The notes under the pieces: model-generated
The model's database searches: none
What the model was told of the DNA's origin: nothing
The model's input: the letters and a program-made list of their open reading frames with translations, nothing else
Made by a program: the position numbers and the translations under genes
In this document: in pieces, positions 4,435 through 52,708 of the stretch
How positions within the stretch are numbered: the first letter of the stretch is position 1
Layout: each line of letters opens with the position of its first letter
DNA from: Spirogloea muscicola
Taxonomy: Eukaryota; Streptophyta; Zygnematophyceae; Spirogloeales; Spirogloeaceae
Length of the DNA: 52,708 bases
Assembly (NCBI GenBank): GCA_009602725.1
Contig: WELB01000099.1
Location: forward strand, 1-52,708
Direction of reading: 5' to 3'

Positions 4435-6513
4435 TCAAGGTGGCCCTGAATGATAACCGTATAGGTCGCTCACATTACCCCGGCATCGGCCACTGTAGTC
4501 TTGATAGTAGCAGGGGCCATTGTCGAAATCGCAAATTCCTTGGTTGTTGCAGAAGGAGCAGCACCCAAGATGACATGGACCATCGCAAGGCGTGTCGACC
4601 GGCTTGTAGCTGTCAACTTGGCATATGCCCTCACTGTGAAGGTGGCATCATGTCAGTACAACTGGAGCAAAAGTCGTGACTTGTGAGCATCTTTACAGCT
4701 CAAGCTTTGTTCCGATCCATGAGTTCCAAAATGACGAGGAGCTATTGTGCTTCGAAGTCCTGCAGTGATGACCCTTGGCGCAAAGGCTGGCAGCATGACG
4801 GCAAAGTACAATCAAAGTGGCGCAACCCAAGGCCTTCATTAGATACCTGCACTTGCCATTGACGCAGTCGGGATAGATTGGTCTTTTGTTGTCAGTTATG
4901 TTGCAAGGAGTACAGTTTGGCAGAAAGTTCAGCATGCACTTGCCACTCCTGTAACATTGACCACCCAGGATGCATGCTCAGTTGGTGCTAAGCTCTCATC
5001 TCAGGTCCTCCGCGTGCCAAATTCACAGATGCGGCAACCTGAAGCAGAGCTATTTGCGACTTCCTGATTCTGGTCGAGGCATATCAAAGATCCATGTACT
5101 TTACAATTCACACAGTCTTGTGGCCTACATGCACGAAGCAGTAGCACAGCCCATGTACTCAGTAAGGGGACCATTGTCTAATAAGGCACGCGCGCAATCA
5201 GTGCCATCTGGAAGTGGAGCGACCTGAGCACAGGTGCCATTCCTACATGACGAAGCACCAGACGCTTCAGATCAGTAGCTGGACCACATGCTGATACATA
5301 TGTCAGTGGCGCATGTAGCACACGTGCAACACAGCTGAAAGTGTCGCGCAGTCACACTGCTGCATGCAATGGTTTCAGGAGAGCATGTGGCACTCCATGA
5401 TACTCCCACGACATGGACGGTCATGCACCTGCACTTCAGCACGCTGCAGAAGTCATCCTCAGGGACGTAGTCGCAAGGTTTTTTCGCATTTGCAGCGTAG
5501 TCTTACCGGCAGTGTCCAGCACCACTGCCAACGAAGTATCACCCGTATTAGAGCCTGGAAATTATGCTTATGGCAAGTTGGGTGCTTTGAATGTGTCGAA
5601 TTGGCACATTTTAAACAATCAACCAATACTTGAGTAGACCTTCTCAAAAGATCAGACGCAGATGGTGGCGGGCTCACTTGCACACTCCGTTCAGCTCGCA
5701 ATGGTTGTAATTATCAATATTCAAGGAGCAGGGAGAGCCCGCGGAATAGAAGCTCATGACCACACATGACCCGTTCCTGTTGAGGAGGAAGATCAAGCCA
5801 GCAGCTGGCTTGTGAGTACGTGGCGCCAAGCAGATAGTCATGCTTGCATGCCCAACGACCTGAAGACAACAAACTACTGCTTCTCAGGGGCACAAAATGG
5901 AGACCAACGTCAGGACCAAGTTCAGCTACTCATTTGGCCCACGTCAATCTGTCAGGAACGCAATTCAGAGCTGCCCATCACTGCAAGGGTTATGTGAAAC
6001 ACGGCTACCGGGAAGAAAGTCAAAAAAGATGGGTGGACGATCTTGCTCATCTCAAAGCACTGACCGGCAACCGAGATTGGCGCAAGAATTGTCAACTCCA
6101 GGCAAAGAATCACAAAACACATAAGGGTGAGGATCCACAAAAGAAGCCCGTGCATATCAGAACGAGGGAACGAAGTTCACAGTGCTGAAGACACGCAAAG
6201 ACAAGAACACGATAAGGTTATACTCAGTGAAACACCCTACTAGTGCTTTAGAGGGATTCGCTGGCAGGAAGCATGTGCCATGTTCAGCATGCAAGAGGTG
6301 CTGAACAAAATTTCCTGTTAATTGAAACTTGCAGCTGATAGACGACCATGCAACAGCCCAAAAGCGTGTTCAAGTTCTGCTTGCAGTCAAGGACTTACTA
6401 GCAATATGCATAGGTACACGGGGCTCGGCTACGAGCTGGAGTCGAGTCAAGCAGATCAGGCTGCCAGTTCCGGCAAGTAAGTTTGTAGCTATCCTCCGCG
6501 CAGGCTGCAGATG
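4435..6513 (-). CDS. Gene A cysteine-rich exons 1-6, with two stop codons
   Basis: The exons are 6399-6513 (start tentative), 5678-5776, 5429-5524, 5129-5242, 4847-4948 and 4435-4633. Motifs in order are A-A-C and P-C-T-Y-A-Y-C; N-G-S-C-V-V-M-S; G-A-G-H-C, then C-D-Y-V-P-E-D-D-F-C; N-G-T-C-A-Q-V-A-P-L-P-D-G-T-D-C; C-T-P-C-N-I-T and P-D-C-V-N-G-K-C; E-G-I-C-Q-V-D-S-Y-K and G-C-C-S-F-C. Exon 1 ends in TA, which joined to the G of exon 2 makes TAG. Exon 3 contains CGG TAA GAC, whose GGTAAGA is also a perfect donor and could have become a new splice site. The DGTPC...CVNGKC layout recalls the cysteine-rich regions of ADAM/ADAMTS proteins, but only as a loose resemblance. Confidence 0.7.
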
Positions 6514-9500
6514 CTCAGAAAGATGTCTTACTAAGAGTATAGCTAGCACTTCGACCTGTCGTTGGGAAATACCAATAACTGCAGAGCACCTCTACATGAG
6601 TGGTGAGTGGCCTGATCATCCTGCACATACTCCAGAGTGAAAGCACGCAAACTGTTGTCATCTTGATGCAGGGCGCTTCATGCACTTCACGAGCGTTTAC
6701 AAGGAATGGACAGCGAGACGAGGGGTGTAAAGGAAGAAAAGCAGCACCACGGGGTGCAAGTAGGCCCGCACAGACTGAAGCTGGCCTCTGGTACTTCGCC
6801 GGACGGTCCAAGCAGTTGAAGTTGGCGTGGACGACAGCGCGCCCCTCTTTTGTGACATTGGGTGCTGCCCCAATAAAGTAATTCCTGGAGATATCCACCC
6901 ATGTCAGGTTCTGGGTTGAAGCAAAGAAGTCCAGCCTGAAAGCTCCTTGGAAATTGTTGTACGAAATGTCTCTGCCCCATCAATCAACAAGCGTGGCTTA
7001 GACCAAGAGCTCCCATTTCTGAGGAGAAAGAGAAGTAATTTAGATCGATTGGGCATGACAAAGGTTTGCTCTGTTGCTCCTTACAAATTTCGCAGCTTTG
7101 TAAGGTATGCAAAGGGTTTTATCCCCAATCCCAGATCTGGCAGCACCCCTTCAAATTGATTCCCTGCAATGTTGCTGCAGAAAGCAGGAAACTCGCAGGC
7201 AAACAAGTACAGTGAATGAGCAGCGCAGTACGTCTATGACGCAAGCATGCACATCCTGGTCCTTAACATGCTCATTTTCAAGAAAACAACCCCCTGCAAT
7301 CATCAAATCGTGATGCAAGTGGTATTGTGCAGACTTCCTGACAATCGCAGCAGTGAGCAGCAATCAAGGATCTTACAGGACTTGCAGATTCCTGCATTTA
7401 AGCAGCTCCTCTGGGAAGAAATATGCAGTGAGGTTGTTGTATGAATAATCCCTGATGTGCCAATGCATCATATACTTTGCCGATCAGCCATGTCAGCATC
7501 AAGTCAATTTCCAGAGCAAAGAAGCTCGTCAAACAATTTGTCTGTAGGCAGAAATATGATCACAGAAAGTAAGTTGCTTGCATCTGAAAATCTCATGTAA
7601 GGCAAAGGGAAGCTACTCTCCGAGTCATACACGTGGGTGAGGACATCATTGAAGGTTATCAATCCGGTTGAAGTAGTGAAAATGCTCGTCATTCCGCCTG
7701 GTACCCAGGCTGGGCCCGTCAGTCTGTTATGTGCCACTTGACTGCACTTGCAACAGCACACCACTCAGGGATCTAGCTGGCCCATCGGATGCGCACATGT
7801 GCAACAACCCTATCATCCCAGTCATTCTGCAGGAGCCAGAACCCCCTGGTACCACGTGAAGGATACAGTCTATAGCTAAATCATGCATTGGAGAGAGCTC
7901 AAGCTACAGACAGGGCCTACTGCAAGTGCTTGGTTCTCACATTTTCTGCAGCGCAAACATGGTGGTTAGGTCGGGCAAGTCGCCGCTGAGGCTGTTGTAA
8001 TCCAAAATGCTGTGGAGGTGCAAGAAAAAGAGGGAGTCGAGGTCACAGCAAATTTTGTGAAGGGCGACAAAACTAATAAGCTGAGGTAGACCTTGAGCTA
8101 TAGTTGGAGGGTGGTGGTTATGCAAGATCACGGCACTGAAAGTCTCAAAATAAGTTGTTATAGGGAAAGCCAACACACACAGGATGACAAGTCGGTAGAG
8201 TCGTGTGATGGTGGCCGGTACGCTGCCGGTGAGGTTGTTACAGCAGAGGTGGCTGGGTTGTAGAGCACAAAAGGTCCAACAAAGCATGTGAACAAAATCA
8301 GGACAAAGAACTAGGAATGTACAAATCAGGATGTTGCAAATCTTGCTCTTCGGGTGCCCACAGTAGAGCCGCATAGGCACCTACAGACTCACTTATGATT
8401 TGTGACACCATACCAAGGAAGATGTCATGTAGCAGAAGCTTCTATCTCAGGGTATTTTATCTACAGTATGTGCCTTTGGGTCAGGACAACACTTGCGCCT
8501 AGTATGCTGTTGTGAGATACGCCTAACAAGAACTCACAGCAGGGTCAGCGCAGATAGCTGCCCAATGCTCTCTGGAATACTCCCACTTAAGAAGTTATGG
8601 TCAAGGTTCCTGCAGGCAATCATGTGACAAAAGCACAGTGACTTTGCTTATCTACTATCTGAACACTCAAAGTAGTCCTCGGGACAGCACACAAGCACAT
8701 CAAAACAAGGTGAGCAGAGCTTGAATTTTATACAAAAGGTCCAAGTGGGCGAGGTTGCCAATTGTAGAGGGAATCATTCTGGAGAGCCGGTTGCCATAGA
8801 GATGCCTTGCACAGCAGGTACAAGAGGTGTGCTTGATAAGCCCCACTGCAGCGATCACACAACTAGCTAAAGAATTACAGGAAGCACCAGCTTGTGGATG
8901 GCTGCTGCCACGAGAACCTCGTAAACATGGCGAGCATGTTGACGGGACAGCAGTGTCTCACAAGCGTGTCAGGCCCGTCAGGTCGCCAATGGAAGCGGTG
9001 ATGCTCCCGTTGAGGTTGGCGTTCACGACCACTCTGTGTACGCACGGGCTTGCTTCATTCAGCATCAACCCCACGCTGAGGCTGACAAAGGTCTGCGGAG
9101 CTCGAAGTGTGCATTTCTGTGGACCGGGGAGGGTTCAGCGAGCCCAATGGCCAATGCCAGCACTGTGTCTAAGGAGCGAGCAGGCCGCCACTAACGGGCG
9201 GATCGGGCCCATTCTGAGCGCCCTCAAGGGCCAGCATGTGGCAGGGCATGGTTATACTCACAGCGAGCTGACGCGGCTGGTGCCCGGGTCGCACTCGATG
9301 CCGTACCAGGCGCAGTGGCCGCCGGTGGAATTGCAGCCGGCGCAAGGATTGGGGCCCACCCAGCTCGACAGAATGCTGGGATTGTGCACGCCAGCCTTGA
9401 AGCTTTGCAGGGCCGCCACTGCAGAGCCAATCACCGGCGGCGCAGCGTCAGGCGCGTGGCAAAGTGATGGCAAACTACCAAGAGAGATAGTTTGGAGTGT

Positions 9501-9896
9501 CACTTAGCGACGGCAGGCTGGCGAGGAGGAGGAAAAGGTGCGCGGTGCACATGAATTGGAAGGTTGGCCAACCCGTACGCAGTGCATTGTACAGGCGAAA
9601 GCCAGTGCAATAGTGGGACAGCTTGGAACAAAGCCCGATGCTAAGGTGGCCGCAAGGAGAAGGCGCGCGGTGCGCATGAAGTGAAAGGTGGCCATATCAA
9701 GCCAACCAAGTGTACAGGCAAAAGCTAACGAGAACTCACGGTCTGGGTGCACGCCAAGCAGACGGCGGCCGATGGGGAGCGCAGCTTCGGGCTGGCGCGC
9801 AGTAAGATGCGGCTGCTGCAATTGAGAGATGGAGGGTTCGGCGGCGGCGCCGGTGGCGAGGAGGGCGGCGGCGGCGAGGAGCAGCAGCGCCGCCAT
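4435..9896 (-). CDS. Gene A: secreted LRR protein with cysteine-rich tail, probably truncated
   Basis: This multi-exon gene has an ATG at 9896 and its last exon ends at a TGA at 4435-4437. The predicted order is signal peptide, LRR cap, nine LRR exons, six cysteine-rich exons. Exon sizes, phases and GT-AG sites match paralogues B, C and D. No transmembrane or kinase segment is visible, so an extracellular role in recognition or adhesion is inferred from the LRR family. Two changes suggest loss of function at the 3' end. The codon split by the intron after the first cysteine exon becomes TA|G (stop) where the paralogues have AA or GA in those two positions. A TAA lies at 5503-5505 inside the third cysteine exon. 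The product may therefore end after the LRR domain. Protein function is otherwise unknown. Confidence 0.75.
6751..9896 (-). CDS. Gene A exons: signal peptide, LRR cap and nine LRR exons
   Basis: Exons read on the minus strand are 9740-9896 (signal peptide, ends G-V-H-P-D, phase 1), 9262-9418 (cap with W-V-G-P-N-P-C-A-G-C and C-A-W-Y-G-I-E-C), 8962-9033, 8734-8805, 8538-8609, 8181-8252 (72 nt each), 7941-8009 (69 nt), one starting at 7741 whose 3' end is unclear, 7377-7451, 7085-7174 and 6751-6971. The LRRs follow the plant pattern N-x-L-x-G-x-I-P-x-x-I-G-x-L. The last exon carries D-I-S-Y-N-N-F-Q-G and then Q-R-P-A-S-V-C-A-G-L-L-A-P, probably the C-terminal cap of the solenoid. Most donors are GTGAGT or GTAAGN; 8734 uses GTATAA and 8181 uses GTGTGT. 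Confidence 0.8.
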
Positions 9897-14698: not shown

Positions 14699-16725
14699 TC
14701 ACTCAAAAGGGTCCAGGACGCAGGTAGTGCCCGAGCACTGGCCATCGTAGCCATTGATAGCGCATGGACCAGCGGTGTCAAAGTGGCACATTTGTTTGTC
14801 ATTGCAGAAGGCGCAGCAACCATAAGGACACGGACCTCCGCAAGGCGTGTCAACTGGCTTGTAGCTGTTAGTCTGGCATTTGCCCTCACTGCAAAGGTTG
14901 GCGATGTGTCATGTAAAGCTGGAGTACAATTCACGACGATGTGAGCAGCATAATAGCTCAGCTTTGCTCTTTACCATGAAGGAAACTATCAGCGTGACAT
15001 GACAGCTTATGCGTACCGGTCTTCTCTGATTATGAGCCCCTATGCGCAGGCTGTGCCAGTAAAGTGGCAAGATACATTCAAAGTATTGACTTCCAGGTCT
15101 TAAGGCAATACCTGCACTTGCCGTTGACGCAGTCGGGATACAAATCTGTGTTGATGGCAGTTATGTTGCAAGGAGTGCCATTCAACAGGAATTTCAGCAT
15201 ACACTTGCCATGCCTGTGATGTGGACCACCCAAGATGCAAAAGTCATGCTCAATTGGCGGATCCTAAGCTTAGGTCCTCACAGGTGCCAGGAAATGTTTG
15301 GCAGGACATACATGCTGATTGATGAGCTATGCTTACTTGTCAAGTCCTTCTTCTGTGTGGAGCACAAGAACTATGTTAGCTTACAGCTTACACAGATTCG
15401 TGACCTACATGCACGAAACAGTAGCACAGCCCTTGTAGTCAGCAAAGGGGCCCGGGACGCTGTTTATGACGTCCAAGGCTTGTGCGCAACTGGTGCCATC
15501 TGGAAGTGGAGAGACCTGAGCACAGGTGCCATTCCTACAAGACAAACAACCTCAGCTCTGACTCAGTAGCTGGTACACATGCTGGTGAAAGAGTCATGCT
15601 AACTACTGGCAGAATGCTCCACAACATCTGCAAAACAGGTTTGCCACGTTCACGGTGCGCATGCATTGGTCACAGAGCCTGTGCCGTTGCATGTCCTCGC
15701 TAAAAGCTTGGACAACAGATACACCTGCACTTCTGCACACTGCAGAAGTCGTTCCCAGGGATGTAGTCACAAGATATATTGTTCTTTGCACCGTAGTCGT
15801 AAAGGCAGTGTCCAGCACCACTGCCAACAATGTCTCGCCAGTGTCACAGCCCAAACAGCAGGCTTCTGGCAAGGTGGAATCCCTGATATGCTAGTGACAC
15901 ATATGTACAACTGCATTGCCTCTTCAACGATATTCATCAACGGTGGAGGCGGCCATACTTGCACACTCCATCCAGCCAGCACTGGTAGTTCTGGTATTCA
16001 GTTATCAATAAGCAGGAAGAATTAGCGGAATAGTTGCTCGTGACTGCACATGATCCATTCCTGTACAAGAGGACCACCAAGCCAGCACCATCTCAGTGAG
16101 CATTCACGAAAGTGGTCATGCTAGCACACCCGATGAAGTGAAGATCATCTGCTGTGCAAGTTGCCAACTTGACACCATGTGAAAATCAAAGCCAGTGCAC
16201 TACCTAGCTAAATATATCCTGCACAGGGTGGCCAGCTGCTCAACACCAGAACCACACAGCTACAGACAAGAAGGTCAAAGGACTAGCTCAATCGAGAGCA
16301 CGGACCGGCAGCCGAGAGTGGCGCAAGAGGAATCAACTCCAGGGACAGAAGGGCAATGTGAGCCGTCCCCAAGGCTAGCCCTTGTGCATTTCAAGGTCCG
16401 AGGGCTAGAGAGGCGCACAGACAAGCATCAGTCAGGATCACTAGAACCCCCTAGTAATGGATGTGAACAATAATACTATCAGGAGCATGCGGTTCACCAG
16501 CAAGCAAGCAAGAGGTGTCTGCACCTGATACATGACCGAGCAGATGCGCTCAACAGCCTCTGCAGTGGTGTTTGCAGTTTGGAGCTTACTTGCAATATGC
16601 ATAGGCACACGAGTGTTGGATAGCAGCAATTTCGTAACCAGGCAAGCTGGCTACCAATTCTGGAAAAACAAGTGAGGTTATAAGGGTCGTAATAGTCTGG
16701 AAAGCATGCTGCACATGCCCGACAA
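14699..16725 (-). pseudogene. Gene B cysteine-rich exons 1-6
   Basis: Exon 1 ends at 16590 (C-R-A-C-A-A-C, then a frame change before S-C-A-Y-A-Y-C). Exons 2-6 are 15959-16060 (N-G-S-C-A-V-T-S), 15725-15820 (G-A-G-H-C-L-Y-D-Y, then I-P-G-N-D-F-C), 15409-15534 (N-G-T-C-A-Q-V-S-P-L-P-D-G-T-S-C), 15112-15213 (G-T-P-C-N-I-T and P-D-C-V-N-G-K-C-R) and 14699-14888 (E-G-K-C-Q-T-N-S-Y-K, G-C-C-A-F-C, C-V-L-D-P-F-E then TGA). Apart from exon 1 all are open and keep every conserved cysteine. Confidence 0.7.
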
Positions 16726-17047
16726 AGATAATTTAAATCAGCACTATCATCTGTGACAAAGAACCACTGAAAGTTGCAGAGCACTCTGCATGGACTGGCA
16801 AAAAACAGTCTGGACTATATGCATACTCAAGGAGCCTGCTCTGTCTACTTCCAAACTTCAAAGAGCTCCATGCATCCACGAGATTCTACAAGGAAAGAGC
16901 CGAATAGCTGAATTGGCGCATGCGGGGACGAAGAGATCCTGAGAGATGGGTGTTGAGGTGGTTGAGGGCAGGGGGATGGGAGGAGAGGAGCATGGGGCAG
17001 GACGAGATCGGTGATGATAGTGGAGATGGGGCATTCGTAGAGCCCAC

Positions 17048-20000
17048 CTGGTGCAGGTACGGCCGCACAGACTGAAGCTGGCCTCTGCCACTTTGCAGGG
17101 CGGTCGAAGCAGTTGGTGCCGGTGTGAACAGGAATCCCCTCGATTGTGACGTTTGGTGCTGTTCCAGTGAAGTAGTTATCGGTGACATCCAACCACGTCA
17201 ATTTCTGAGTTGAACCGAAGAAGCTCAGACTGAAAAGCCCCTGGAATTTGTTGCGGGAAATGTCTCTGCCATCAATCGTGGCCAATGAGAGTGGCTTAGT
17301 GAAGGGGGCCTTTACACTGAGGTGAAAGAGAAGCATTTCTCATTGGTTGGGCATTGCATAGTTCAGGATGTCTCCCTTACAATATCCTCAGCTTTGTGAA
17401 GGTGGCAAAGGGTTTTTCACCTCCCGGCCCTGAATCTGGCAGCGCCCCTCCGAAAGTGTTCCCTGCGATATTGCTGCAGCAACCAGGAGCCTCGCAGGTA
17501 AGTATGTACAATTGCATCAGCAGCACATTATGAGCCTTGCTGCTGGCTGCTCTTTACATACAAGTGATGTCAATCTAGCCTTCTGTAAGTTAAGCACAAA
17601 TTTTTCTGGCGCCTGGCAGCTTGAAGCACCCTCAAGGACAGGACCCCCTGCCATTGTTCTGATGCATTTGGTGGTATTGCTAGGAGCAGCGCCGGTGAGC
17701 TGCGGTGTTCGATTTCATGCTAAGGCAATGAAGGACCTTACAGGACTTGCAAGTTGACGCAGCGTGTCAGCAGGTCTGGAAACAATCCAGTAAAGTTGTT
17801 GTATGAGAAATCCCTGAAAGAAGCGAGCAACATAGACTCTGCCAATCAGAGATGCTCTTGAAGACCATGTATGCATCTCGTCAATCGTTGGAGCAAGTAG
17901 CCTCCCTCATATGTTTGTCTGAGGGCAGCTCATATATCAAGTGGCAGCTTGCTTGCAGTTCAGAAGCTAAGCAAGGTAAGCGGAACATGGAAACTTGTCC
18001 AAGTCATACACGGTTGTGAGGATATCGTTACGATAAACGGGTCCGCTTGGCACAATGATGGGGCCCGTCAATTGATTGTGTGCCACTTAACTGCAATATC
18101 GAAGCACACCACCCATGAGTTTCTCATTTAGCAATCGGATCTACATATTTGCATGATCACATCGTGGATCTGCAGCTCTACAAGCCTTTGGCATTACGTC
18201 TTGTGTAAGATTAGTCGAAATGTCATGTGATGCCTGAGTTCCATATTCACGTGCGGACAGCGCTCAAGGAACAGCCAGCGTCTGCATGTAAAATCTTCAT
18301 TCTCACACTTTCAGAAGCCCTTGCATCTGTATGTTGGGAATGGTGCCGCTGAGGCTGTTGTAGTCTAATATGCTGTGGAGGTGCAGGGGAGAGATCGAGT
18401 CAAAGACACAGCAGAAACACGAAACACGAAACACGAAACACGACGAGGCCAGAGCTCATGGATAAGAAGCTTGAACACAGAGATTGCCGAGCTAAGTTGA
18501 AGGATGCAAGATCTGCATTTCACAGCATCAACCATCTCAAGCAAGGTGTGAAAAAGTAGCAACGTGTGAAAACGTGGCAACGTACAGAATGACAAGTTTG
18601 GAGAGTTTTGTGATATTGAGTGGTATGCTGCCCGTGAGGTTGTTGCAGCAGAGATGGCTGACACACACAGCACAAAGGACCAGTCAAGCATCTGCTCAAA
18701 TATCAGGGCAGGGAACTGGGAGGGTAAGAACGACATTGTAACATTGTCAAATCGCACTTGCGTGCTTCCTAGACGCCCATAATCAAGTAGCTTTGCCATG
18801 TGCCGGATTCAACTTTCTTAGTGATATCAATATGTTGGAGGAGGTCTTGAAACAACATAAGCTTAAGCATTCGTCTTGTGTATCCATCTACTGTATGTGC
18901 CACTAGGCCAGGAAGTTCTGGATCAGTTGCAGAGTGTAATTTTGCAGTCAACATCAGACTGAGATCTTCACACGAGAACTCACAGCAGGGTCAGCACAGA
19001 AAGCTGCCCGATGCTCCCTGGGATACTCCCACGCAAGAAGTTATGGTCTAGGTTTCTGCAGGCAACTCTGTGACATAAGCACCGATGCCTTGCTCTTCTG
19101 GGCCACAATTCTCAGAACAATGCTAGAGCCCAATGAAGAAGGTGAGTATAGACTGATCTCGCACAAAAGGTCGAGTTGAACGAGGTTGCCAATAGTAGAG
19201 GGAATGTTGCCCGTAAGCCGATTGCCATAGAGATACCTTGCGAAGCACATGCGAGAAGTGGCATCAGATACTCGTCAGTACAACTCTTTTACGACATTAT
19301 TTACAAGTATGTAAGGAACCAGCGCGTAAATGGCTGCTGGCAAGGGGACTACACTGTAAGTACTGCGAGCAGGGTGATGGGGAGAGCAGTGACTCACAAG
19401 CACGTTAGGCCCGTCAGGTTGCCAATCGAGGGGGTGATGCTCCCATTGAGGTTTGAGTTCACGACCACTCTGTGATTGCACGAGCTCGGCTGCACTTGCA
19501 TCAAGCAACGTGGACGGACGACAAAAGTCCACGGACCAAGGGGACTTCAAGAGCCTGGTGGTGGCGGAGTCAGAGGCAGCAACTTTCTGAAGGGGCGGGC
19601 AGAAGCCCGCCATCAAGATACTTACAGCGAGCTGACGCGATTGGTCGTCAGATTGCACTGAATGCCGTGCCAGGCGCAGTCGCCCCCCGTGGAGTTGCAG
19701 GCGGCGCAAGGGTTGGACCCCACCCAGCTCGACAGCACCGGCGGATTCAGCACCGCGGCCTTGAAGGCCTAGAAGGGCCGCCACTGCAGGGCGCGCTCCG
19801 CGCAGTGGAGGCTCAGCGGCTTCTATGCAGTCTCTTCGATCAAACAGGTCTTTAGCTAACGAGTAGATCACTGCAGTGGCGGCGGCGGGCAGAAAGGCTA
19901 AGCATCATTGAGCGGCTGTGAGAGCCAGGCAGGTGCATGCAGAGGGTGCTCATGAGAATATTCGTGGGCAGGCTGGGCTGCCAGCGGACGCACGGTCGGG

Positions 20001-37812: not shown

Positions 37813-40800
37813 GCACCTTAGAGAAAGTTCAACTCCAGGATGAGTTAGGGAGAGGAAACATCACGAGAAGGGAGAGCTGGTAAAGTGGGCAGTAGAACAA
37901 AAGGGAGGGACCGTTAAGTTGGAAAGTTATTCTCTTACCAATTCATCCTTGTTATAAGTACTCGCTACGGCAGTAGCTCTACCTCTATCATGGAGGAGGA
38001 AGGCTGAGGGTGGGCAAAGGAGTAGAAGTGGAGAGCTGATGGGGAATCACACACAAAAGTGGGAAGTGATTGAGATACCCACGTGGTGCAAGTACTGCCG
38101 CGCACTCTGAGGCTGGCCGCTGGAACTTGGCGGGGGCGCTGAAGCAGTTGTGGCTGCTGTGGATGAGGCACCCGTCTTTCGTGGCATTTGGCGCTGCACC
38201 GTTAAAGTAGTTACCGGTGATGTCCACCCAGGCCAAGCTCGGGTTCGACCTTCCGCCGAACAGGCTCACATTGAAGAGCCCCTGGAAGTTGTTGTAGGAG
38301 AGGTCACTGCCACATACGAAGGTTCAGGGCTTAAGGTTAGGATTGAGGGTTAATGTATTACGGTTAGCGTTTAGGTTCAGGGTTTAACATCATCGCCACT
38401 AGACATGCCTTTCAGACATCAGCGACTGGGCCCCCCTTCCCCCTGAGGGCAAGGGGCAGTCATCCCTGGTAAGACAGCCGAGAGCCACTTAGGCGTGAGA
38501 GGTAAGGGGAAAGCAGACATTCAAAAGGCTCAGTCTGTTGGCCAGCCACTTACACTTTCCTCAGTCGATAAGCTAGCTCAAAGGTCTCGTAGTAGCCAAA
38601 GCTAGAGGCACCATAGGGGGGGGCGTCTGGCAGCGTCCCTTCTAAATGATTCCCTGCCAAGTTTCTGCACGGATACAAGCACATGTACACAGGTGTAACA
38701 GCGGTTCGGGTCTGGGCTGAGTTGCTGACACCACTCTGGTTCAGGCCAGTCCTGCTTGTACCACAAGCTTGCCCACTGTTTCCGTACAGTATGCGCGCAA
38801 CACAGATTTGCAAGCCTACAAAATGATTCCCGGATTGCGTAGTGAAGAGTATGACATGCAGACTTTACGTGCTTTGCCTGCAAGATGAGGTTATTGACTT
38901 CGAGTTTGCTCAGGCAGCCAAAAAACTTACAGGACTGTCAGAAACTGGCAGGCGACAAGCGGTTCAGGATAGAATCCAGTGAGATTATTGTATGACAAAT
39001 CTCTGAAGGTCACAATGCAATGTGAAATTGGGTGTCAGAAATGTTCTTGATGACCGTGTGTCTAGCTCGCCACACCCTTACATCAAAGTAATGCCTCAAT
39101 TGTATGTCTCTGGGGACCTCATCTGCAGCTTTGAACATGCCTATCAGAAGCAGGCGGAACAGAATAGAAGGGAGTAGTGCAAGGCATACATGACTTGCAA
39201 ATATATGCAGCTGCCACCACCATCCAACGTGGTGATAGGGCCACTTAGCTTGTTGTGCGCGAATTGACTGCAGTATCAAGGAACACGAACTCTCAAAAAT
39301 TTAGCATCATCCTGAACACAACTATGAGCTGGCTACTTCCAGGAGCAACAGTCATTCTGGTTGATGGGCTTGTCAACGCCCTTCTTGGTGTCTGCAAAGC
39401 TCAATGACTGTTTTGCCGGTCGTGATCGTCTAGAGCTGCAGCGTTGCACAACTTCCTCATGCAGAAGTTCATACTTACTATTTCTCGAGCGCATTCGGAT
39501 AGTCTAGGATAAGTGGGGCGCCACTGAGATCGTTGTAGTCCAGAATCCTGTCCAGGTGCCAGAGATTGAGTCAAAGTGGCCTAGGGTCAAATCTAACTAG
39601 CGGAAGCACAGGTCGGACTGGGAGCTGATGTTAAACTATGGTCAAGATGTATGGTGACCACGTACTAGCTGTCTCAGCAGATGTAGCAAGAAAGAGCCAC
39701 TCACAGGATGACGAGCTTAGAGAGAAGTAGCAAGACATAGCCACTCACAGGATGACGAGCTTAGAGAGTAGTAGCAAGAAAGAGCCACTCACAGGATGAC
39801 GAGATTAGAGAGTTGTGCGATGGTGGTCGGAATGCTGCCCGTGAGATTGTTGCAGCATGCATGGCTGCAGATAGGAGCGCAAATGGTGCACGCAAGCGTG
39901 TGACAGGTCACGGATAAGGCAGGGTGCTTGGGAGGGCTCAGACTTTTCGCATGGGCACAGCTTTCCACAAGTAGCTGCCAATGCAACTACAGAACTTGTG
40001 TGTCGATGCGAAGGCGAACACGGACGCAGAAAGAGCATCTTGTGCATCTGTTGAAACTGCCTTATAATGTGTGCTCCTTTGGGCTATAAAGACGATGGTG
40101 TGCTCCTTGTAGGTTCAAATAGTCATCATAGAAGAACTTACAGTAAGGTAAGCTCGGATAGCTGCCCAATGCTTTGTGGGATGCTCCCCGAAAGGAAGTT
40201 GTGATCAAGATTCCTGCAGGTACCCATAGTCAGAGGTGCGCCTTGCATAGCCTCGCACTTTGCAGGTCCCACAGCAATAGCAGAGAAGAGAGGCACAGGC
40301 ACAGCCGCACATTGACCAAAGCCAGCAGAGCCTGAGTGCGCACAGAAGGGAGAGTTTGGTGAGATTGCCAATGGTGGAGATGATTGGTCCTGTCAGCCGG
40401 TTGCTGTTGAGATACCTGGTGCATCATTGCATGTCAAGTGGGAGTGGTCAAGGCTAAGGCCACAATCACAAAGATGAGTACATCAGCTTATGTCTGGTGG
40501 CTGCCAAAGAGGCGGAACAAGAGCACTAGAGGAGCCACTCACAGATTAAAGAGGTTGGAGAGTTGTGCGATGGTGGTCGGTATGGTGCCCGTGAGATTGT
40601 TGCAGCAGAGATGGCTACAAAAGGCAACGCACATTCCACAACATAAGGTATGTGACCATGGAAGAAACAGGGACCTTGAGAGGCTGAGGCTCTTGGCATG
40701 GGCAGCTTCCTACGCCTGAGCTGCCTGAGCAACCCCAGCAAGTTGCTGTCGTTGCCTACAAACGGTGCAGCACAAGCATCGTGAGCATATTCGCATCATG

Positions 40801-43241
40801 TATTGATTGAAGTGTTTTCTAGCTTCTGGTCTTGACAAACGCAACTGCTCCTGAAAGGCCACGTTGATCCTCACAGAAGAACTCACAGCAAGTACAGGTT
40901 GGAGAGCTGCCCAATGCTTGGTGGAATGCTCCCCGTCAGCAAGTTGCTGTCGAGGTTCCTGCAGGCACCCACGTGACCTTGGCACCTTGCATGACTTTGC
41001 AGTCCTCGGATCTCAAAGCACTAGCCCATACAAGAGAAGCACAGGCACAGCCGCAGACCACCAACAGGGGTGGAGGCTGAGTCCGCACAGATTGACGAGC
41101 CTGGAGAGGTTGCCGATGGCGGAGGGGATTTGTCCTGTCAGCCGGTTGTTGTTGAGATACCTGGTGCATCATTGCACTACATAAGTGTGAGTGACAAGCT
41201 AAACGCACAACCACAACAATAAGCAACACCTGCTTGTGTGAGGCGGCTGTCGAAAAGCTCAATGTGAGCAAGAAAGCGGCACTTACAGATCAGTAAGACC
41301 CAAGAGCTGACTGATGGTGGTCGGAATGATGCCCGTGAGATTGTTGTAGCAGAGTTGGCTGCAGAAGGGAGCACAGTCAAGCACGTGACTGATCGTGAAG
41401 TGGACAAGGAGCTTGGGAGGGCTCAGACTTCAAGCATGAGCACAGCTTCCCACAACTGAGCTGTCTGAAAACCATCCGCCGAAAAGCCGGAGAACAAAGG
41501 TGCAGCACAAGACATCGTTTGCATCTGAGCAGACTGGTTTGTTGTGCGTGCTGGAGCCTTTTGGCCTTGACAACGCTGATGGGCTCCTAGCAAGCGATCA
41601 TCACTGAAGAACTCACAGCGAGGACAGCCGAGGGAGCTGCCCAATGCTCTGTGGGATGCTCCCCGTTAGAAAGTTGTGGTCCAATGACCTGCAGGCTCCA
41701 TGTGACACTTGCACACTGCATGACCTTGTGTCCTCGGGTCTCATGGCACTAACAGAGAAGAGAAGCACAGGCACAGCCGCACATGGATCGAAACGAGCAG
41801 AGCCTGAGTGCGCACATGGAATAGAGATTGGTGCAATTGCCAATGGCGGAGGGGATCGGTCCTGTGAGCCGGTTGTTGCTGAGATCCCTGGCGCAGCAAT
41901 GTATGACAGTGTGTGCGTCAGGGAGAGAATGAGCATGGGGCACGTCCAAGAAGATGGTTACCACCAGCTTTTGTGCGGCGGCTGCCAACGATGCGACATG
42001 TAGCCTTGAGCCACTCACAAGAGAAAAAGCTTAGAGAGTTGTGTGATGGTGGTCGGTATGCTGCCTGTGAGGTTGTTGTAGTCGAGAAAGCTGCAGAAGG
42101 GAGCGCAAAAGGTCCAGGGTCAAGCATGTGACTGATCATGGATTGGACAGGGGACTTGAAGGCTCAGACTCTTGGCATGGACAGCTTCGCACGACTGAGG
42201 TACTGACGCAACCACAGAACTCAGCTGTTGATGCAAAAGAGCAACAAGGGTGCAGTAGCAGAGAAGAGCAGCAGCACAGGCACAGCCGCACCATGACCAG
42301 AGCGAGCAGAGCCCGACAGCGCACGAATCAGAAGGAGTGGCGAGATTGCCAATGGTGGAGGAAGTTGGTCCTGTCGGCCGGTTGCTTTCGAGCCACCTGG
42401 TGTTACAGTGTACGTCGAGCAAGAGTGACGAAGCCCAAGGCCACTACTGACTTCGGGGCAGTGGCTTACAGGTCAGACAGTTCCGTCAGGTTTCCAAGGG
42501 AGGGGCTGATGCTCCCGCTGAGGGTGGCATTTCGCAGTTCTCTGAGGGTGCACAGAGAGCCCACGTCACCCCTTGGTGAGAAACCGGCGATGCCTGCGGA
42601 GCTGGGCTTGTGCATCCCCGCCGACTGAGGAAGCCGTATCCTCAGCTTTCACCACCAAGGACCGAGCGAGGACATCAGGTAGATGGCAGGCACACCTCAA
42701 GGGGCCTGGAAAACCCAAGGCGCAGTACTTACAGCCAGACGACGCGGGCGGGCTGTTGGGCGGTCTCCGCCTCGCACTGCACACCGTACCAGGTGCAGTA
42801 TAGGTAACCACCGTTGTGGCAGCCGGCACAAGGGTCGTCCCCGACCCAGGTCGACAGGACCGGCGGGTCCAGCACGGCGGCCTTGAAGTGCTGCAGCGCC
42901 AGGACTGCAGCATGCGCCACCGTTAGCGCGCCCGTTAGCTCGGCCTCGGCAGCACGCAGTGGCGGCGCTGGGCTGGGGTGAGCAGACTGCGGCTGCCGTT
43001 ACTGAGCGAGCGGCCGTTAGCGCCAGCCGTGGGGCTAACGGCAGCTGGGCTGAGGAGGCGCACGGTCGGGGTGCGGGGCGGCGAGCAGCCGGCGGCGGAG
43101 GGGGCGCTCCGCCGCGCCGCCGTTAGCGGCGCCGTCAGCGGCGCTGTTAGCGGCGGCGGCGGCGGCGAGGAGGNCGGCGGCGGCGGCGGCGGCGGCGGCG
43201 GGGGTGGGGGTGACTGGCGGGGTCTCTAAATAAAGCTCCAC
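35486..43241 (-). CDS. Gene C: LRR and cysteine-rich protein with expanded LRR block
   Basis: This is the longest family member, with about 25 exons: signal peptide, LRR cap, 17 LRR exons, six cysteine-rich exons, and a stop TGA at 35486-35488 after C-I-V-D-E-F-G-K. Phases and splice sites agree with A, B and D. The cap exon has a five-residue insertion (A-E-T-A-Q-Q-P-A). No ATG is found in the first exon; the frame (M at 43241 only if GTG) runs into a poly-alanine stretch with one unresolved base at 43174, so the true start may lie in another exon or be lost. All other exons I could define are open. No transmembrane or kinase region is visible, so a secreted protein is inferred. The LRR array is about twice as long as in its paralogues. 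Confidence 0.75.
38083..43241 (-). CDS. Gene C exons: signal peptide, cap and 17 LRR exons
   Basis: The exons are 43064-43241 (5' end uncertain), 42733-42904, 42470-42541, 42325-42396, 42019-42090, 41816-41887, 41617-41688, 41287-41358, 41089-41160, 40887-40958, 40543-40614, 40344-40415, 40142-40213, 39793-39864 (the LRR exons from 42470-42541 to this one are 72 nt each), 39479-39547 (69 nt), one starting at 39267 with an unclear end, 38931-39002, 38554-38664 and 38083-38306. The LRR at 42325-42396 has lost several consensus leucines (L-A-T-P-S-D-S), so one unit may be decaying although the frame is open. The final exon reads D-L-S-Y-N-N-F-Q-G and ends A-V-L-A-P before a GTGGGT donor. Confidence 0.8.
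38320..38388. repeat. Short degenerate telomere-like tract
   Basis: Within an intron of gene C the sequence reads as diverged (T)TTAGGG-type units: ggttcagggcttaaggttag, then ttgagggttaatg and ggttagcgtttaggttcagg. No perfect tandem run is present. It could be a decayed interstitial telomeric repeat, or chance in a simple-sequence tract. Confidence 0.4.
39683..39814. repeat. 44-bp tandem triplication covering an exon end and donor
   Basis: The unit starting gtagcaag and containing gccactcacaggatgacgag recurs at 39683, 39727 and 39771, an exact 44-bp step. The third unit includes the real 3' end of the LRR exon 39793-39864 and its GTGAGT donor. The first two are copies of the exon end and donor lying in the downstream intron. 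Confidence 0.85.
40142..42396 (-). repeat. Amplified three-exon LRR cassette in gene C
   Basis: Three exon types recur in fixed order: N-x-N-R-L-T-G-P-I-x-S-x-I-G-N-L; N-L-D-x-N-x-L-T-G-S-I-P-x-S-I-G-Q-L; and C-x-N-N-L-T-G-x-I-P-T-T-I. The first type lies at 42325, 41816, 41089 and 40344; the second at 41617, 40887 and 40142; the third at 42019, 41287, 40543 and (just outside) 39793. The spacing of the last three cassettes is about 0.73 kb including introns. The first cassette lacks the middle exon and is about 0.2 kb shorter. Genes A and B carry this cassette once, and D carries its second and third exons. Confidence 0.85.
43079..43205 (-). repeat. CGG/alanine microsatellite in exon 1 of gene C
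   Basis: GCC (CGG) triplets encode poly-alanine in the putative signal-peptide exon. One ambiguous base (n) lies at 43174. A related CGG-rich stretch encodes the same region of gene D at 52640-52708. Slippage here could explain why the start of gene C cannot be read. Confidence 0.7.
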
Positions 43242-47069: not shown

Positions 47070-49192
47070 TCATCCTTCGATGGGAGTGCAGTTATTGAAC
47101 TCATCACATTGGCCAGGGTAGCCATCTTCGTAGTCGTAGCAATCGGAAGATTCGTTAGGAGGGCAGAATCCTTGTCCATCACAGAACTTGCAGCAACCCG
47201 TTTCGCACGGGCCACCGCAAGGCGTGTCGTCCGACTTGTAGCTGTCAGTCTGGCATATGCCCTCACTGCAAAGGCGGCATAACGTCAAGTAAAGCTAGAG
47301 AGCATGTTAAGAGAAGTGAGCAGCTTTACAGCTCAGCCTTGCAAGAACCCATGGCACATGCTATCAACTCAAGGAGACAGCCATTTAGGTGTGACATCTG
47401 CAGTGCTGAGCCCCTGAGTCACACAGGCTGTGGCAGGAGAATAGCAAGATACAACAAAGCAGCTCAATTGTATCTCTTCGCTTCACCTGCACTTGCCAAT
47501 GACGCATTCGGGACTGATGAGTTCTGTAAGTTCTGTATTTAAGCCGGTTATGTTGCAAGGAGTGCCATCTGGAAAGAGGAGGCTCAGCGTGCACGTGCCA
47601 TTCCTGTATTCGTTAGCACAAGGATGACACAGTCAAACTCAAGTTGAAAGCCCAGGTCCTCACGAGTGCTAGAATATGTTTGCAAGAATGAAGGATGCCA
47701 TCTGAGAAGTGGGCGCACTTGTGAATTCCTGGCTGGGTTTTGTTCTACAACCATGATTTATGGCTCATATAGGTGGGTCTCATTCTACAACCATGTTTCA
47801 TGGCTCACAAAGGTATGTGGCCTACATGCACGAGGCAGTAGCACAGCCCTTGTTCTCGGCAAAGGGACCTGGGTATAAGCCGTCTATAACATCCAAGGCC
47901 AGTGCGCAATCGCCGCCATCTGGAGTCGGATAGACTTGAGCACAGGTGCCGTTCCTACATGAAGAAGCACCAGAGGCAAATAAGACTGGCACACATGCTG
48001 ATGACGAATGTCGGGCTAAACATTGGCACATGTACCACAGTGTGTGCACAAGGCAATGGCATGGTCACACTGCGCATGCATGGGTCATGGAAGAGCATGT
48101 GCCACTGCATGGTCCTTGCGCATCATGCACGAGTGATCTACCTGCACTTCTGGACGTGGCAGAAGTCATTCCCAGGGATGTAGTCACATGATGTGTTGGC
48201 GGTCGCAGCGTAGTCGTAAACGCAATGTCCACCACCACTGCCAAGGATGTCTCGCAATTGTCAGTGCCCAGCAGAGATGCTGACAGCACCTCGGGTGCTT
48301 GCATGCTTGGAAGGCGTGTTTGTACAATCTTCTTTATGCTTCGCGAGCCTCGTCAGAAAGCTTCAGATACAGATGGTGCAGCCTTACTCGCATGCTCCGT
48401 TCAGCTGGCACTGGAAATTATTGAAGTCGGGCTCCAAGTAGCAGGACAAACCAACAGGATAATAGAACATGACTACACATGACCCGTCCCTGTAGAGCAT
48501 GGCCACCATCCAGCAGCTGACTTGTGAGTACATTGCTCCAAATCGATCAGGTCATGCTTGCATGCCCACTGTCTAAAGGGCATGAACAGCTGCTTAGCAT
48601 AGGTACCAACTAGAGACAACTCCATATCCAGTGGATGATTTTGTCCAGCTCACTGTCTTAGGCACAGGGTGCCGATCTGCTCAATAACTCAAGTTAACAA
48701 GGAGCACATTGCTTGGCAAGAGGGTCAGAGCACTGACTGGCAGCCGAAATCTGCGCAAGTGCGGTCAATTCCAGCAACAGGAGTATTACAAAACGCATCA
48801 TCATCTTTATTACCCCGCGTGCACTGTAAGGTCGTAGAGCTGGGAGGGGCAGAGACAAGCAAAAACTTGAGGATGCAGTTCTTACAGCGCCCTGTAACTG
48901 TGATGGAACATTCTTACAGTAGGAGACATGCAGTACTACTTAGCAAGCAAAAGGTGCTGAAATAAGGCTCCTGTTCTCTGATGTCTCCAGCTGACAGATG
49001 ACCAAGCGGCTGCGCTCAACAGCCTCTCAAGGTCTGCAGTCAGCACTTACTTGCAATACGCATACATACACGACTGTTGGATAGCCAGATCCTGGCCCAG
49101 CAAGCCCGGCAGCCAGTTCTGGCAATCGTTGTCAACTGAGCAGGCTGCACATGCCCACTGAGAGACATTTTCAACACGAACCAGCAATACAT
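47070..49192 (-). CDS. Gene D cysteine-rich exons 1-6, all open
   Basis: The exons are 49051-49192 (W-A-C-A-A-C, Q-N-W-L-P-G-L-L, S-C-M-Y-A-Y-C-K), 48388-48489 (D-G-S-C-V-V-M-F-Y-Y), 48142-48237 (G-G-G-H-C-V-Y-D-Y, C-D-Y-I-P-G-N-D-F-C), 47826-47954 (R-N-G-T-C-A-Q-V, G-C-A-T-A-S-C), 47487-47603 (L-L-F-P-D-G-T-P-C-N-I-T, P-E-C-V-I-G-K-C-R) and 47070-47265 (E-G-I-C-Q-T-D-S-Y-K, C-C-K-F-C-D-G-Q-G-F-C-P, C-D-E-F-N-N-C). Each boundary inside the module is phase 2. Exons 4 and 5 share an N-G-x-C...D-G-x-x-C...C layout and may be an internal duplication. The domain is unlike the usual malectin, GNK2 or EGF domains of plant receptors. Confidence 0.82.
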
Positions 49193-52100
49193 CTGTCCAT
49201 ATACTCCAATGCTTGTAGAGCATCCTGCATGGACTAATCCATCTTCCTAAGAGGTTTTGGCAGACCAGATGCAACTGACATGCAACTAACAGGAATTCAG
49301 GGCGCTTCATGCGCTCCACGAGGGTCTACAAAGACCCAGAAGAGCCGGGACAAGGGGGGGGGGAGTGACTCCTGATTGAGGGGTGTTTAGAGAGCACGGG
49401 GGAAGGAGCATGGGGCAGGATGAGGGGGGTGAGCACCCACGTGGTGCAGGGAGGGCCGCACAGACTGAAGCTGGCCTCTGGTGCTTGGCAGGGCTGTCGA
49501 AGCAGTTGGTTCTGGTGTGCACAGGGCGCCCCTCGATTGTGACATTGGGTGCTGGCCCAATAAAGTAATTGCCGGTAACATCCAACAATGTCAAGTTCTG
49601 GGTTGAAGAGAAGAAACTCAGACTGAAAACGCCCTGGAAATTGTTGTAGGAGATGTCTCTGCCACAAAAACGATAATGGCCAAGACATGTGACTTAGAAA
49701 GGATCCGCCTTCTGTGATGGGAACGGAGTGACATCCCTGATTGGCATCATATGCTTCAAACAACGTGCCCCTTACAACGTCCTCAAACTTCCAAGATATT
49801 TAAAGGGCTGTATATTATCAAAGGCCAAGTCTGGCAGCGCCCCTCCAAACTGATTCCCTGCAAGGTTGCTGCAAGAACAGGGGATACACAGGCACACACA
49901 CATAATCGATAGCAGCTTCAAAAGCTTGATCTTGTTGTGGACTGCACTTCTCACATATCTGGAGGCTGCCTTGTCCTCCTGTGACTCAAGCATGCACATC
50001 TGGTGCCTAATGTGCTTTTTGACTCTCAGGAATACAAAATACCTGGAATTGTTACGCTGTGCAACAATTGGTAATTATCTGACTTCCTAGAAGCGTTCAT
50101 GATCCGTGACAGTTGCTTTGCTGCTCAGGCACTGGGGGGTCTTACAGGACTTGGAGGTTGGAGTCTCCATCCTGTACAAGATTAACTGGAAACGATCCAG
50201 TGAAGTTGTTGTACGAAAAGTCCCTGGATGGAGCAATGCAACAAAAAATCTGCCAGTAAGTTGTGCTTCTGAGACCATGTCTGCAGCTCGTCGGATCGCA
50301 GAGCAAGGAGCTTGCACCACCAATCTGTCTGTGGGCAGCTCATAGATTGAAGAAATTCATGCTTGCAACTCAGAAGCTTATGCAAGCCAGGAGGGGAGAT
50401 GAATGGCGAGTGATACACGGTTGTGAGGGCTGTTTCCACGTATAGAATGTCAGGATATACGATGATGGGGCCAGTCAACTGATTGTGCGCCATTTGACTG
50501 CATTGGCAAAAGTACACCGCTCATGCGGGCAAGCTGGTGGATCAGCCTTTCACGTGCACGACAGCTTCATCTGACATTCGATCTTGATACAAGCGTTTGG
50601 TACTACATGTAAGTGTCAGATTGATCTTGGCGTATGGGATGGTGGCTGAGACATATGAATCATGAGCGGACAGAGCTCACAACAAAGGCGAGCTCTGCAT
50701 GCAGATGCTTGGCTCTCACATTTTCTGAAGCGAACTCATAGTTTGTAGGTTGGGAAGCGCACCGCTGAGGCCGTTGTGGTCCAAAATGCTGTAGAAATGA
50801 AGTAAAGGTACAGCAAAGTATGAAGGCCTAGGCTCAAGGCTAACAACTGGAGTACCGGTAGCATGCGAGCTAGATCTGGAGGATGGCAAAAGATTATGTG
50901 CAAGAAGGTCTACAGCACCAATTATCTCGAGTAAGGTGTGAGAGAAACTAGCCACGCACAAGATAGCAAGCTTAGAGAGCTGTGTGATGGTGGTCGGTAT
51001 GCTGCCCGTGAGATTGTTGCAGCAGAGATGGCTTTAATGTTGAGCATCAGAAGATCACAGTTGAGAATAGGTTAATAACAGGACAAGGATGTGGGAGGTA
51101 AAATCTCTCAAGTGCACATCATGCTGTGCAACTGCCCCTACAATTAGTTGGAATAGGCAGCTGCAGGATTCAGCTTTCACTAGTGATATCAATACAAAGC
51201 GGAGGTTATGCAGCAGAGGCTCAGAGAATTGCACATATGCGATCTTTGTACCTGCTTCTACTGTATCCGCCTCAAGGTCAGGACAACACATACTTGCACC
51301 TATATGGTAGCTATGATGCACATTGGGATACTTAAAAACAAGAACTCACAGCACGGTCAGCACGGAAAGCTGCCCAATGCTGTCTGGAATGCTCCCACTT
51401 ATGGAAGTCTGATCAAGGTTCCTGCAGGCGCACACAAGACAAAAAGCACTTTGACCTTGCTTGATCTTCATCTGGCCACTCGATTCCGAACGCAGATCAC
51501 CACAGAAGCTCATGCCAGAGACACTGTATGCAACCAATTGACAAGCACGAGAAGCACCAGCTTGTACATGGCTGCGGCCAAGAGGAATCTTCTGTGGGTA
51601 CCCCGAGCAGGAGGTTGTAGAGAGCAGGTCTTACAAGGACGTCAGGTACGTCAGGTTGCCAATGGAGGCGGGGATGCTCCCGTAGAGGTTGGCGTTCACG
51701 ACCACTCTGTGATGCACAGGCTTGGCAGCACTCGGATCAACCCATGTCGACGGACCACGGTTCTTTGCGGAGCTTGGTATGTGCACTTTTGTAGATGACC
51801 TCGCAATATCCGTGCTTGCTACCATACTCCTGGTGATGACGATTGAGACACACAACAGCGAGCCCTCGTCCTCGTGAAGGGGCGTGCAGTCCACCACCAC
51901 CACGGGGCTCGAACGCCGCGCCCGTCTCGAACGGCCTCAAGGGCCAGTACATGGCGGTGCATGCTCACAGCGAGTTGACGCGGTTGGCGTCGGTGTTGCA
52001 CTCGATGCCGAACCAGTTGCAGCGGCGGCCCTTGGCATTGCAGCCAGCGCAGGGGTCCGGCCCCACCCAGTTCGCCAGTACTGGTGGGTACGACATGGCG

Positions 52101-52708
52101 GCCTGGAAGTCCTGCAGGGCCGCCACTGCACAGTGCACTCTCGCCGGCGCAGCCTCAGCGGCAGCACGCTGGACTACGACAGCAGACAAGGCCCTTCTAA
52201 AAGGGCCCATGGCTGCGAAGCCCCAGGCTGAGGAGGAAGGACGAGAGGAGGACCCTTCCAGTAGAGGGTGATGGCTGTACTTAGCCAGCCCAGAATAAAG
52301 CCCCGAACAAAGGGTCCAGAGAAGCGGTTAAATCTCACAGCGACTAAGATTGGAAAGGACCGAAGGACCGAAGGACCGAAGGACTGAAGGACTGAAGGAC
52401 GAGGTTCTTGAAGGGCCGGAGAGCGCAAGAAAGCTCTTCAAGAAAGGCCCGTGGCTGCGAAGCGCCAGGCTGAGAAATTGGATCGTGAATTGAGCGATGG
52501 AGGGCCTGAGCGGCCAAGTACAACGGCAAGCGCATCGACAGGTGTACAGGCAGAGCGTCCGAAACGGCAGTCAATGGTGGTGGCGCTCACGGTCGGGATG
52601 CGGCGCAGCGTCGAGCAGGCGCCGAGCCGCGCGGCCGCCGCCAGCCGCGCCATTAGCTGCGCCGTTAGCAGCGGCGGCGGCGGCGGCGAGGAGGAGGGCG
52701 GCGGCGGC
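47070..52708 (-). CDS. Gene D: secreted LRR protein with cysteine-rich module, 5' end cut
   Basis: This is the most intact family member. Its first exon runs off the window end, and the last ends at TGA 47070-47072 after N-N-C-T-P-I-E-G. All exons I could define are open, with conserved phases and good GT-AG sites. The order is alanine-rich signal region ending A-A-P-H-P-D, cap exon, eight LRR exons, six cysteine-rich exons. It lacks the L-Y-G-N-R-L-T-G LRR exon present in A and B. No transmembrane, GPI-signal or kinase segment is evident at the C-terminus, which ends in a polar tail. A secreted, disulfide-rich recognition or matrix protein is inferred from the LRR family. The ligand is unknown. 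Confidence 0.85.
49441..52708 (-). CDS. Gene D exons: signal region, cap and eight LRR exons
   Basis: The exons are 52591 to beyond 52708 (ends R-R-L-L-D-A-A-P-H-P-D, GTGAGC donor), 51969-52125 (cap, W-V-G-P-D-P-C-A-G-C and C-N-W-F-G-I-E-C), 51635-51706, 51350-51421, 50960-51031 (72 nt each), 50720-50788 (69 nt), one starting at 50497 (Q-M-A-H-N-Q-L-T-G-P-I-I, 3' end unclear), 50146-50223 (78 nt), 49776-49868 (93 nt) and 49441-49658 (218 nt, D-I-S-Y-N-N-F-Q-G, N-Y-F-I-G-P-A-P-N, ending A-L-P-A-P). The exon starting at 50497 shares an L-T-T-V-Y-x-like segment with A and B beyond the LRR, so it may be longer than one repeat. Confidence 0.82.
52353..52401. repeat. 9-bp tandem repeat in intron 1 of gene D
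   Basis: The unit gaaggac(c/t)(g) is repeated about five to six times (ggaccgaaggaccgaaggac and following), with a c-to-t change in the last units. Confidence 0.75.
52475..52560 (+). repeat. Dispersed repeat with ggccaagtacaa core
   Basis: The segment gcgatggagggcctgagcgg then ccaagtacaacggcaagc resembles 10508-10600, 11905-11990 and 24126-24200, and in reverse 9945-9985 and 22025-22060. Here it lies in intron 1 of gene D. It is about 70-90 bp long with no coding frame, and could be a SINE- or MITE-derived fragment. Confidence 0.6.

Follow-up and report, generated by a model that had tools for sequence, protein, structure and literature searches.

Putative secreted LRR proteins of a streptophyte with a tail of four-cysteine modules encoded by phase-matched exons

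Four genes on the minus strand of the window, the whole stretch of 52,708 nucleotides that was analysed (C99:1-52708), follow a common plan in which a signal peptide is succeeded by an LRRNT_2 cap, plant-type LRR exons, a cysteine-containing last LRR exon and small cysteine exons. The predicted product is an LRR protein with no anchor, composed of a signal-like start, the LRRNT_2 cap, an LRR solenoid, four-cysteine modules and a ten-cysteine end. The reading that best accounts for it, at a probability of roughly 0.45, is that of secreted LRR recognition proteins carrying a disulfide stalk, a family that would have expanded in a streptophyte through duplication of phase-2 exons. The models of genes A to D and of their paralogues were read from genomic DNA alone, and the whole-genome searches covered 153 Mb in 471 contigs of the same organism. 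Its RuBisCO small-subunit exon scores 120 bits against the best PDB chain, a chloroplast small subunit 1A, and 88 bits against the Chlamydomonas chains, which makes this relative of land plants, probably an alga, most likely a streptophyte.

The initial annotation had described four minus-strand genes with a single exon plan; they were found where it had set them, with corrections, among them the number of cysteine exons, given there as six and counted here as seven (m1-m7), or eight in gene C. Growth and decay in place, also proposed there, is supported; gene C has copies of an LRR block and a second m3 exon, and genes A and B are broken. The features are as follows.

47070..52708, minus strand: gene D, spliced model with GT-AG borders and no frame break
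52708-52591, minus strand: D signal-peptide exon, start beyond the window
52125-51969, minus strand: D LRRNT_2 cap exon
51706-51635, 51421-51350, 51031-50960, 50788-50720, 50223-50146, 49868-49776, minus strand: D LRR exons
49658-49441, minus strand: D last LRR exon with cysteine cap
47070..49144, minus strand: D tail m1-m7, 34 cysteines in seven modules, with 0 Pfam and 0 NCBIfam families
49144-49051, 48839-48738, 48489-48388, minus strand: D m1, m2, m3
48237-48142, 47954-47826, 47603-47487, minus strand: D m4, m5, m6
47265-47070, minus strand: D m7, stop included
35486..43190, minus strand: gene C, outer 5' border approximate, exons read singly, not joined
About 42904-42733, minus strand: C cap
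42090 to 39793, minus strand: C LRR array, three-exon block amplified
38306-38083, minus strand: C last LRR exon
37655-37553, 37352-37251, minus strand: C m1, m2
36980-36882 and 36849-36751, minus strand: two C m3 exons
36603-36508, 36320-36189, 36005-35904, 35678-35486, minus strand: C m4, m5, m6, m7
14699..20108, minus strand: gene B, broken, 5' border approximate, frame breaks in cap exon and m1
19469-19398 to 17265-17048, minus strand: B LRR1 to last LRR exon
16404-16306, 16060-15959, 15820-15725, minus strand: B m2, m3, m4
15534-15409, 15213-15112, 14888-14699, minus strand: B m5, m6, m7
4435..9896, minus strand: gene A, broken, 5' border approximate, in-frame stop in m4
From about 9896, minus strand: A signal peptide
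9418-9262, minus strand: A cap, followed by LRR exons to 7085
6971-6751, minus strand: A last LRR exon
6504-6399, 5776-5678, minus strand: A m1, m3; borders of m2 not resolved
About 5503-5505, minus strand: stop in A m4
5242-5129, 4948-4847, 4633-4435, minus strand: A m5, m6, m7

The 16 exons of gene D join through GT-AG borders to 594 residues and a single final stop; its start codon is not seen, the DNA past the window end being a run of N (assembly gap). Pfam scores for D are 26.8 bits for LRRNT_2 (cut-off 20.7; E 6.2e-6), 59 bits for LRR_1 (cut-off 20.6; E 4.3e-17) and 47.9 bits for LRR_8 (cut-off 27), which class it as a plant-type LRR protein, defined by LRRNT_2 and LRR matches above the Pfam cut-off. 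In gene A the LRRNT_2 match at 9288-9419 also exceeds the cut-off, and signal-like N-termini were recognised by eye in genes A and B. Read one by one, the exons of gene C contain no break, with one N in the signal-peptide exon. The paralogous loci L001, L002 and L003 retain all 15 exons past the signal peptide, stop-free and in the expected phases, when read without joining them into one frame; L001 is a close paralogue of gene B, and its 15 exons show no break.

The arrangement of exon phases is regular. In all seven tabulated genes (A-D, L001-L003) LRR1 to LRR3 are of 72 nt and phase 2, and LRR4 to LRR6 vary from 66 to 111 nt. The last LRR exon contains two cysteines and ends in phase 1, the phase in which m1 starts, while the junctions from m1 to m7 are all of phase 2, so that m2 to m6 are phase 2-2 exons like those of the LRR part. 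Because the LRR exons and m2-m6 have intron phase 2 in common, duplicating one exon or a block of them leaves the reading frame intact. Gene C shows this for its LRRs: the extra LRR exons are a tandem three-exon block, three copies of which, introns included, are 74-76% identical over 705-717 aligned bases, and its m3 exon is the only one for which module duplication is shown. In the same array a 44-bp unit occurs three times at 39683-39813 (93% matches), across the end and donor of the C LRR exon 39864-39793; since the unit spans the donor site, this donor may occur in several copies.

The cysteine modules obey a strict pattern. The consensus of m3 to m6 is G-x-C-x(10-11)-C-x(8-22)-C-x(4-5)-C, the glycine and the four cysteines being the sole invariant columns in the alignment of the 16 window exons of these types. 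Cysteines were counted over 11 genes with seven modules each. Of these 77 cells, 70 were usable; in the other seven (A m2 and m4, B m1, L004 m7, L005 m2 and m4, L007 m3) the exon was broken, could not be located or had ill-defined borders. Four cysteines, no more and no fewer, were found in 59 of the 60 readable exons of types m1-m6, and ten in nine of the 10 readable m7 exons, both exceptions lying in the broken gene A; these counts may be biased towards the cysteines of D because exons were picked by their similarity to that gene. The G-x-C start is present in all 41 readable m3-m6 exons from the 11 genes and absent from m1 (0/10) and m2 (0/9), and in m1 the first gap is shorter, mostly 5-8.

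A chance origin of the modules was rejected. The strict pattern of acceptor, module and phase-2 donor, composed after the window was seen, gave 108 sense-strand matches in 36 stretches totalling 172 kb (the four window genes and 32 loci) versus one on the antisense strand of the same stretches. No match was found on either strand of the 27.3 kb of the window between the genes or of seven other loci, and the mean over 10 first-order Markov sets was 0.0. Of the 108 matches, 87 lie in loci fetched for their last LRR exon, 16 in the window and five in L029, fetched for m5.

Profile comparison joined m2 to m6, together with four module types from distant paralogues, by a chain of matches (m3-s_b, E 1.3e-6; m6-s_d, 1.7e-5; m5-m3, 3.8e-5; m2-s_b, 8.1e-5; m4-s_c, 8.4e-5), the E-values being those of single pairs of short profiles; the best value of the LRR and cap controls was 0.024. 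Many single pairs were insignificant (m4-m5, 0.16). Shared descent of m1 and m7 with m2-m6 was not shown by these profiles, whose best values were 0.010 and 0.0027, respectively; with values so weak, the kinship of both is suggested by cysteine pattern and position alone.

In plant LRR recognition proteins the LRR part is generally followed by a kinase, by a membrane anchor or by no more than a short tail. Against PDB the LRR part matched plant receptor ectodomains (FLS2, 4.7e-103), and with LRR receptor kinases and receptor-like proteins such as FLS2, PEPR1, ERECTA-like and TMM the family shares the LRRNT_2 cap, plant-type LRRs and a strong LRR sequence match; it differs from them in the series of cysteine modules after the LRR and in that neither membrane segment nor kinase is seen. 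The cysteine tail stands where one or the other would be expected, in agreement with the initial annotation: in gene D the last cysteine lies 5 residues before the stop that follows m7. At eight loci of the second subfamily or more distant, no more than about 25 residues separate the last cysteine from the stop in the frame of the terminal module, and this frame contains no membrane-like stretch, L022 being broken inside this module. At the level of the genomic sequence these endings, with no kinase on C99, C20 or C453 among the matches listed, speak against an LRR receptor kinase, and a receptor-like protein would likewise be discarded, as no C-terminal membrane segment is seen in D or in the eight loci.

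No known domain was recognised in the tail, which fits the earlier description of the cysteine module as unplaced. Pfam returned no family at E <= 10 for the joined D tail (300-residue query) and only weak matches for 16 single modules (best E 0.028); NCBIfam returned 0 families for the joined tail and one terminal module, and a PDB sequence search, run with the joined tail and an alignment of the modules, gave two insignificant matches. Such results do not mean absence from other algae, the only eukaryotic genome searched being that of the same organism. One local match to the tail came from the tick evasin P974 in PDB (E 0.095) and is likely due to chance or a shared motif. The m7 alignment found no relative in viral contigs or prokaryote genomes, nor did the last-LRR alignment in viral contigs. 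AlphaFold2 models were of low confidence (pLDDT 56.5 for a single module, 53.3 for m7) and give the stalk role proposed below no structural support. The cysteine-rich domain of ADAM/ADAMTS, which we take the tail motif DGTxC...CxxGxC to resemble, was discarded, the 300-residue tail query giving 0 Pfam families. Among the titles and opening lines of abstracts listed in the literature search, none describes such a tail; supplementary files and most subscription papers fell outside its scope, so it is not proof that the tail is unpublished. A survey of plant surface receptors includes algal LRR ectodomains with no membrane segment or kinase, and the word cysteine is absent from its main text (PMC10834447).

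Across the genome, the search with m7 of gene C located 12 places, spread over C99, C20 and C453 and including a partial one, and that with the terminal module of the second subfamily gave 19 rows, two overlapping on C77, and hence 18 places, some with internal stops. As the two sets have no place in common, there are at least 30 terminal-module places, some broken, and C81 and C455 hold further terminal modules beyond both sets. The last LRR exon gave 41 rows at E <= 0.01, two overlapping on C20, and hence 40 places, of which 32 reach E <= 3e-5. Four lie in the window; 31 of the remaining 36 were fetched, five being left aside. At least one strict module is present in 27 of the 31 fetched loci; none was found in L008, which has candidate modules in a looser scan, in L013, in L017 or in L031, only 415 bases at a contig end. 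The tandem clusters contain broken copies, and m7 of L004 is broken. Three modules and a terminal module were found at L049 and L051, where no LRR exon was recognised in roughly 6 kb upstream, and L050 has the terminal module alone; these three loci look like partial gene copies or a tail-only form, and the existence of such pieces at L049 and L051 counts against the preferred reading. The tail pieces are at L049 6163-6942 and L051 6248-6993, and L048 is 44% N.

That the LRR exons and the cysteine exons are two neighbouring genes, as the tail pieces lacking a recognised LRR might suggest, is very improbable, given that the last-LRR donor and the m1 acceptor of A, C, D and L001-L007 are both of phase 1, that in D the 296 nt between the last LRR exon and m1 fall inside the range of its other introns (117-496 nt), and that the pair of last LRR exon and module recurs in the fetched loci.

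Selection was estimated as Nei-Gojobori dN/dS over all 55 pairs of 11 genes; broken or missing exons were left out, the LRR part of L005 and L007 was represented by the last LRR exon only, the pairs are not independent and the values are pairwise averages over gene parts rather than per site. The median was 0.37 for cap and LRR and 0.49 for the tail, with values below 1 in 55/55 pairs for the LRR part and 53/55 for the tail. Selection on both parts is therefore purifying on average, which points to functional proteins, tells against positive selection on a broad scale and does not bear out the earlier view of genes under changing selection; local positive selection at single sites may be compatible with such averages. 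The two tail values above 1 belong to the pairs A-L005 (1.21) and D-L004 (1.10), and since one member of the first is gene A, with its stop in m4, and one of the second is L004, with its broken m7, they are more simply explained by relaxed constraint. In 48/55 pairs the tail has the higher dN/dS, the LRR part, the expected recognition surface, being the slower one; because it evolves faster, the tail may itself be an interaction surface.

Among the ligands of plant LRR ectodomains are peptides, glycans and other ectodomains, and rows of small cysteine modules form stiff stalks. In a secreted recognition protein of the kind preferred here, the LRR arc would bind an extracellular partner, be it a peptide, a wall glycan or the ectodomain of another receptor. 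The tail, with its even cysteine numbers and N-glycosylation sequons, may be regarded as a disulfide-bonded stalk that would space, multimerise or tether the LRR part in wall or mucilage. The protein, free or held in wall or mucilage, could serve as recognition protein, co-receptor or ligand decoy and would not by itself be a signalling receptor. Candidate receptor partners exist, since the genome holds LRRNT_2 exons followed by kinase exons on the same strand (C416:21408 and 24469; C5:289411 and 293141). No kinase was found on C99, C20 or C453 among the 118 matches listed (125 of 772 candidates scored). A kinase exon at C244:16019-16282 (minus strand) follows the terminal module of the family gene C244:23711 at a distance of about 7.4 kb on the same strand and is taken as a putative separate gene; it counts against the preferred reading in so far as splicing could run past the stop to a further exon. 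Large clusters of LRRNT_2 exons on C2 and C330, with kinase exons on the same contigs, are probably LRR receptor kinases.

Tentatively, the family may also be seen as an animal-style modular extracellular family that arose independently in the plant lineage, in which a plant LRR and a new four-cysteine module, one exon each and in the same phase, would let exon duplication alter the lengths of LRR part and stalk, in a system serving recognition at the wall. Animal Slit-type proteins consist of LRRs plus EGF modules, the EGF module having six cysteines. The likeness is in the order of LRRs and small cysteine modules; here the modules have four cysteines and the tail has no Pfam match, and EGF-type modules were discarded on these grounds. 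LRR exons of fixed length with phase 2 introns, together with exon shuffling, are also described in the accessible parts of the reports on brown-algal ROCO genes (72-bp phase-2 exons, one LRR each, shuffling, diversifying selection; PMC11378527) and Tetrahymena LRR genes (90-bp phase-2 scheme, mostly purifying selection; PMC6564038), and LRR1-LRR3 fit the definition of phase-2 exon-shuffled LRRs with 72-nt exons given in the first of them. As described there, exon repetition in those other lineages concerns the LRR part only, whereas the present family has a second, unrelated one-per-exon module, also in phase 2.

A role as soluble immune-type recognition or inhibitor proteins, PGIP-like or acting as receptor decoys and diversified by gene and exon duplication, is doubtful. 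PGIPs and other secreted LRR-only proteins end soon after the LRR C-cap and share with this family a plant-type LRR with no anchor. To our knowledge PGIPs have no series of cysteine modules, and in D 271 residues (complete module codons) follow the LRR. The LRRNT_2-capped LRR, the presence of a PGIP among the PDB relatives of the LRR part (1ogq, 2.3e-22) and the tandem clusters with their broken copies are consistent with such a role, as is the three-exon LRR block of gene C when compared with the ROCO LRR genes of brown algae, for which an immune-receptor function has been proposed (PMC11378527). Nevertheless, the average LRR dN/dS reached 1 in none of the pairs.

An unlikely alternative is that the proteins act in mating or cell pairing by binding or buffering a secreted signal of the partner. 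The model for it would be CpRLP1 of Closterium, a streptophyte-algal LRR receptor-like protein of 589 residues with a signal peptide and no kinase, which tunes the sex-pheromone response and whose knockout severely reduces conjugation; it is an example of a streptophyte-algal LRR protein that tunes signalling without having a kinase (PMC5736609). Yet a membrane segment is predicted in CpRLP1, along with a short cytoplasmic region, neither of which is seen here, the accessible part of its description makes no mention of a cysteine module series (PMC5736609), and thirty or more places are many for a mating pair.

It is more improbable still that these are structural glycoproteins of wall or mucilage in which the LRR part is merely an adhesive module. 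Cysteine-rich repeats, N-glycosylation sequons (11 in gene D, counted over its joined exon translations with the residues at the junctions omitted) and the lack of a visible signalling part agree with it, while the stronger conservation of the LRR half points to a binding surface that has been kept. A family of at least 30 places with a repeated four-cysteine module where a kinase, anchor or short tail is usual would add a domain to plant extracellular biology, bring exon-phase modularity of the animal kind to a streptophyte and offer a testable set of soluble receptor-kinase partners near the origin of land plants.

Other elements were found around the genes. Just 3' of gene A, positions 4046-4340 hold a decayed second copy of the region of its LRR4 exon, mostly 64-93% similar to 7788-8089 in translated frames. 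Between genes B and C an open frame at 24298-24612 (plus strand) contains a PHD finger (1.1e-6). Remains of a Ty1-copia-type retrotransposon occupy 31201-32936 (plus strand), with two overlapping RVT_2 frames (8e-35 and 9.3e-16) and an SH3-like domain of retroviral type, and a repeated element is present at 28788-29024 and 33884-34119, its copies being 59-100% similar in short translated stretches.
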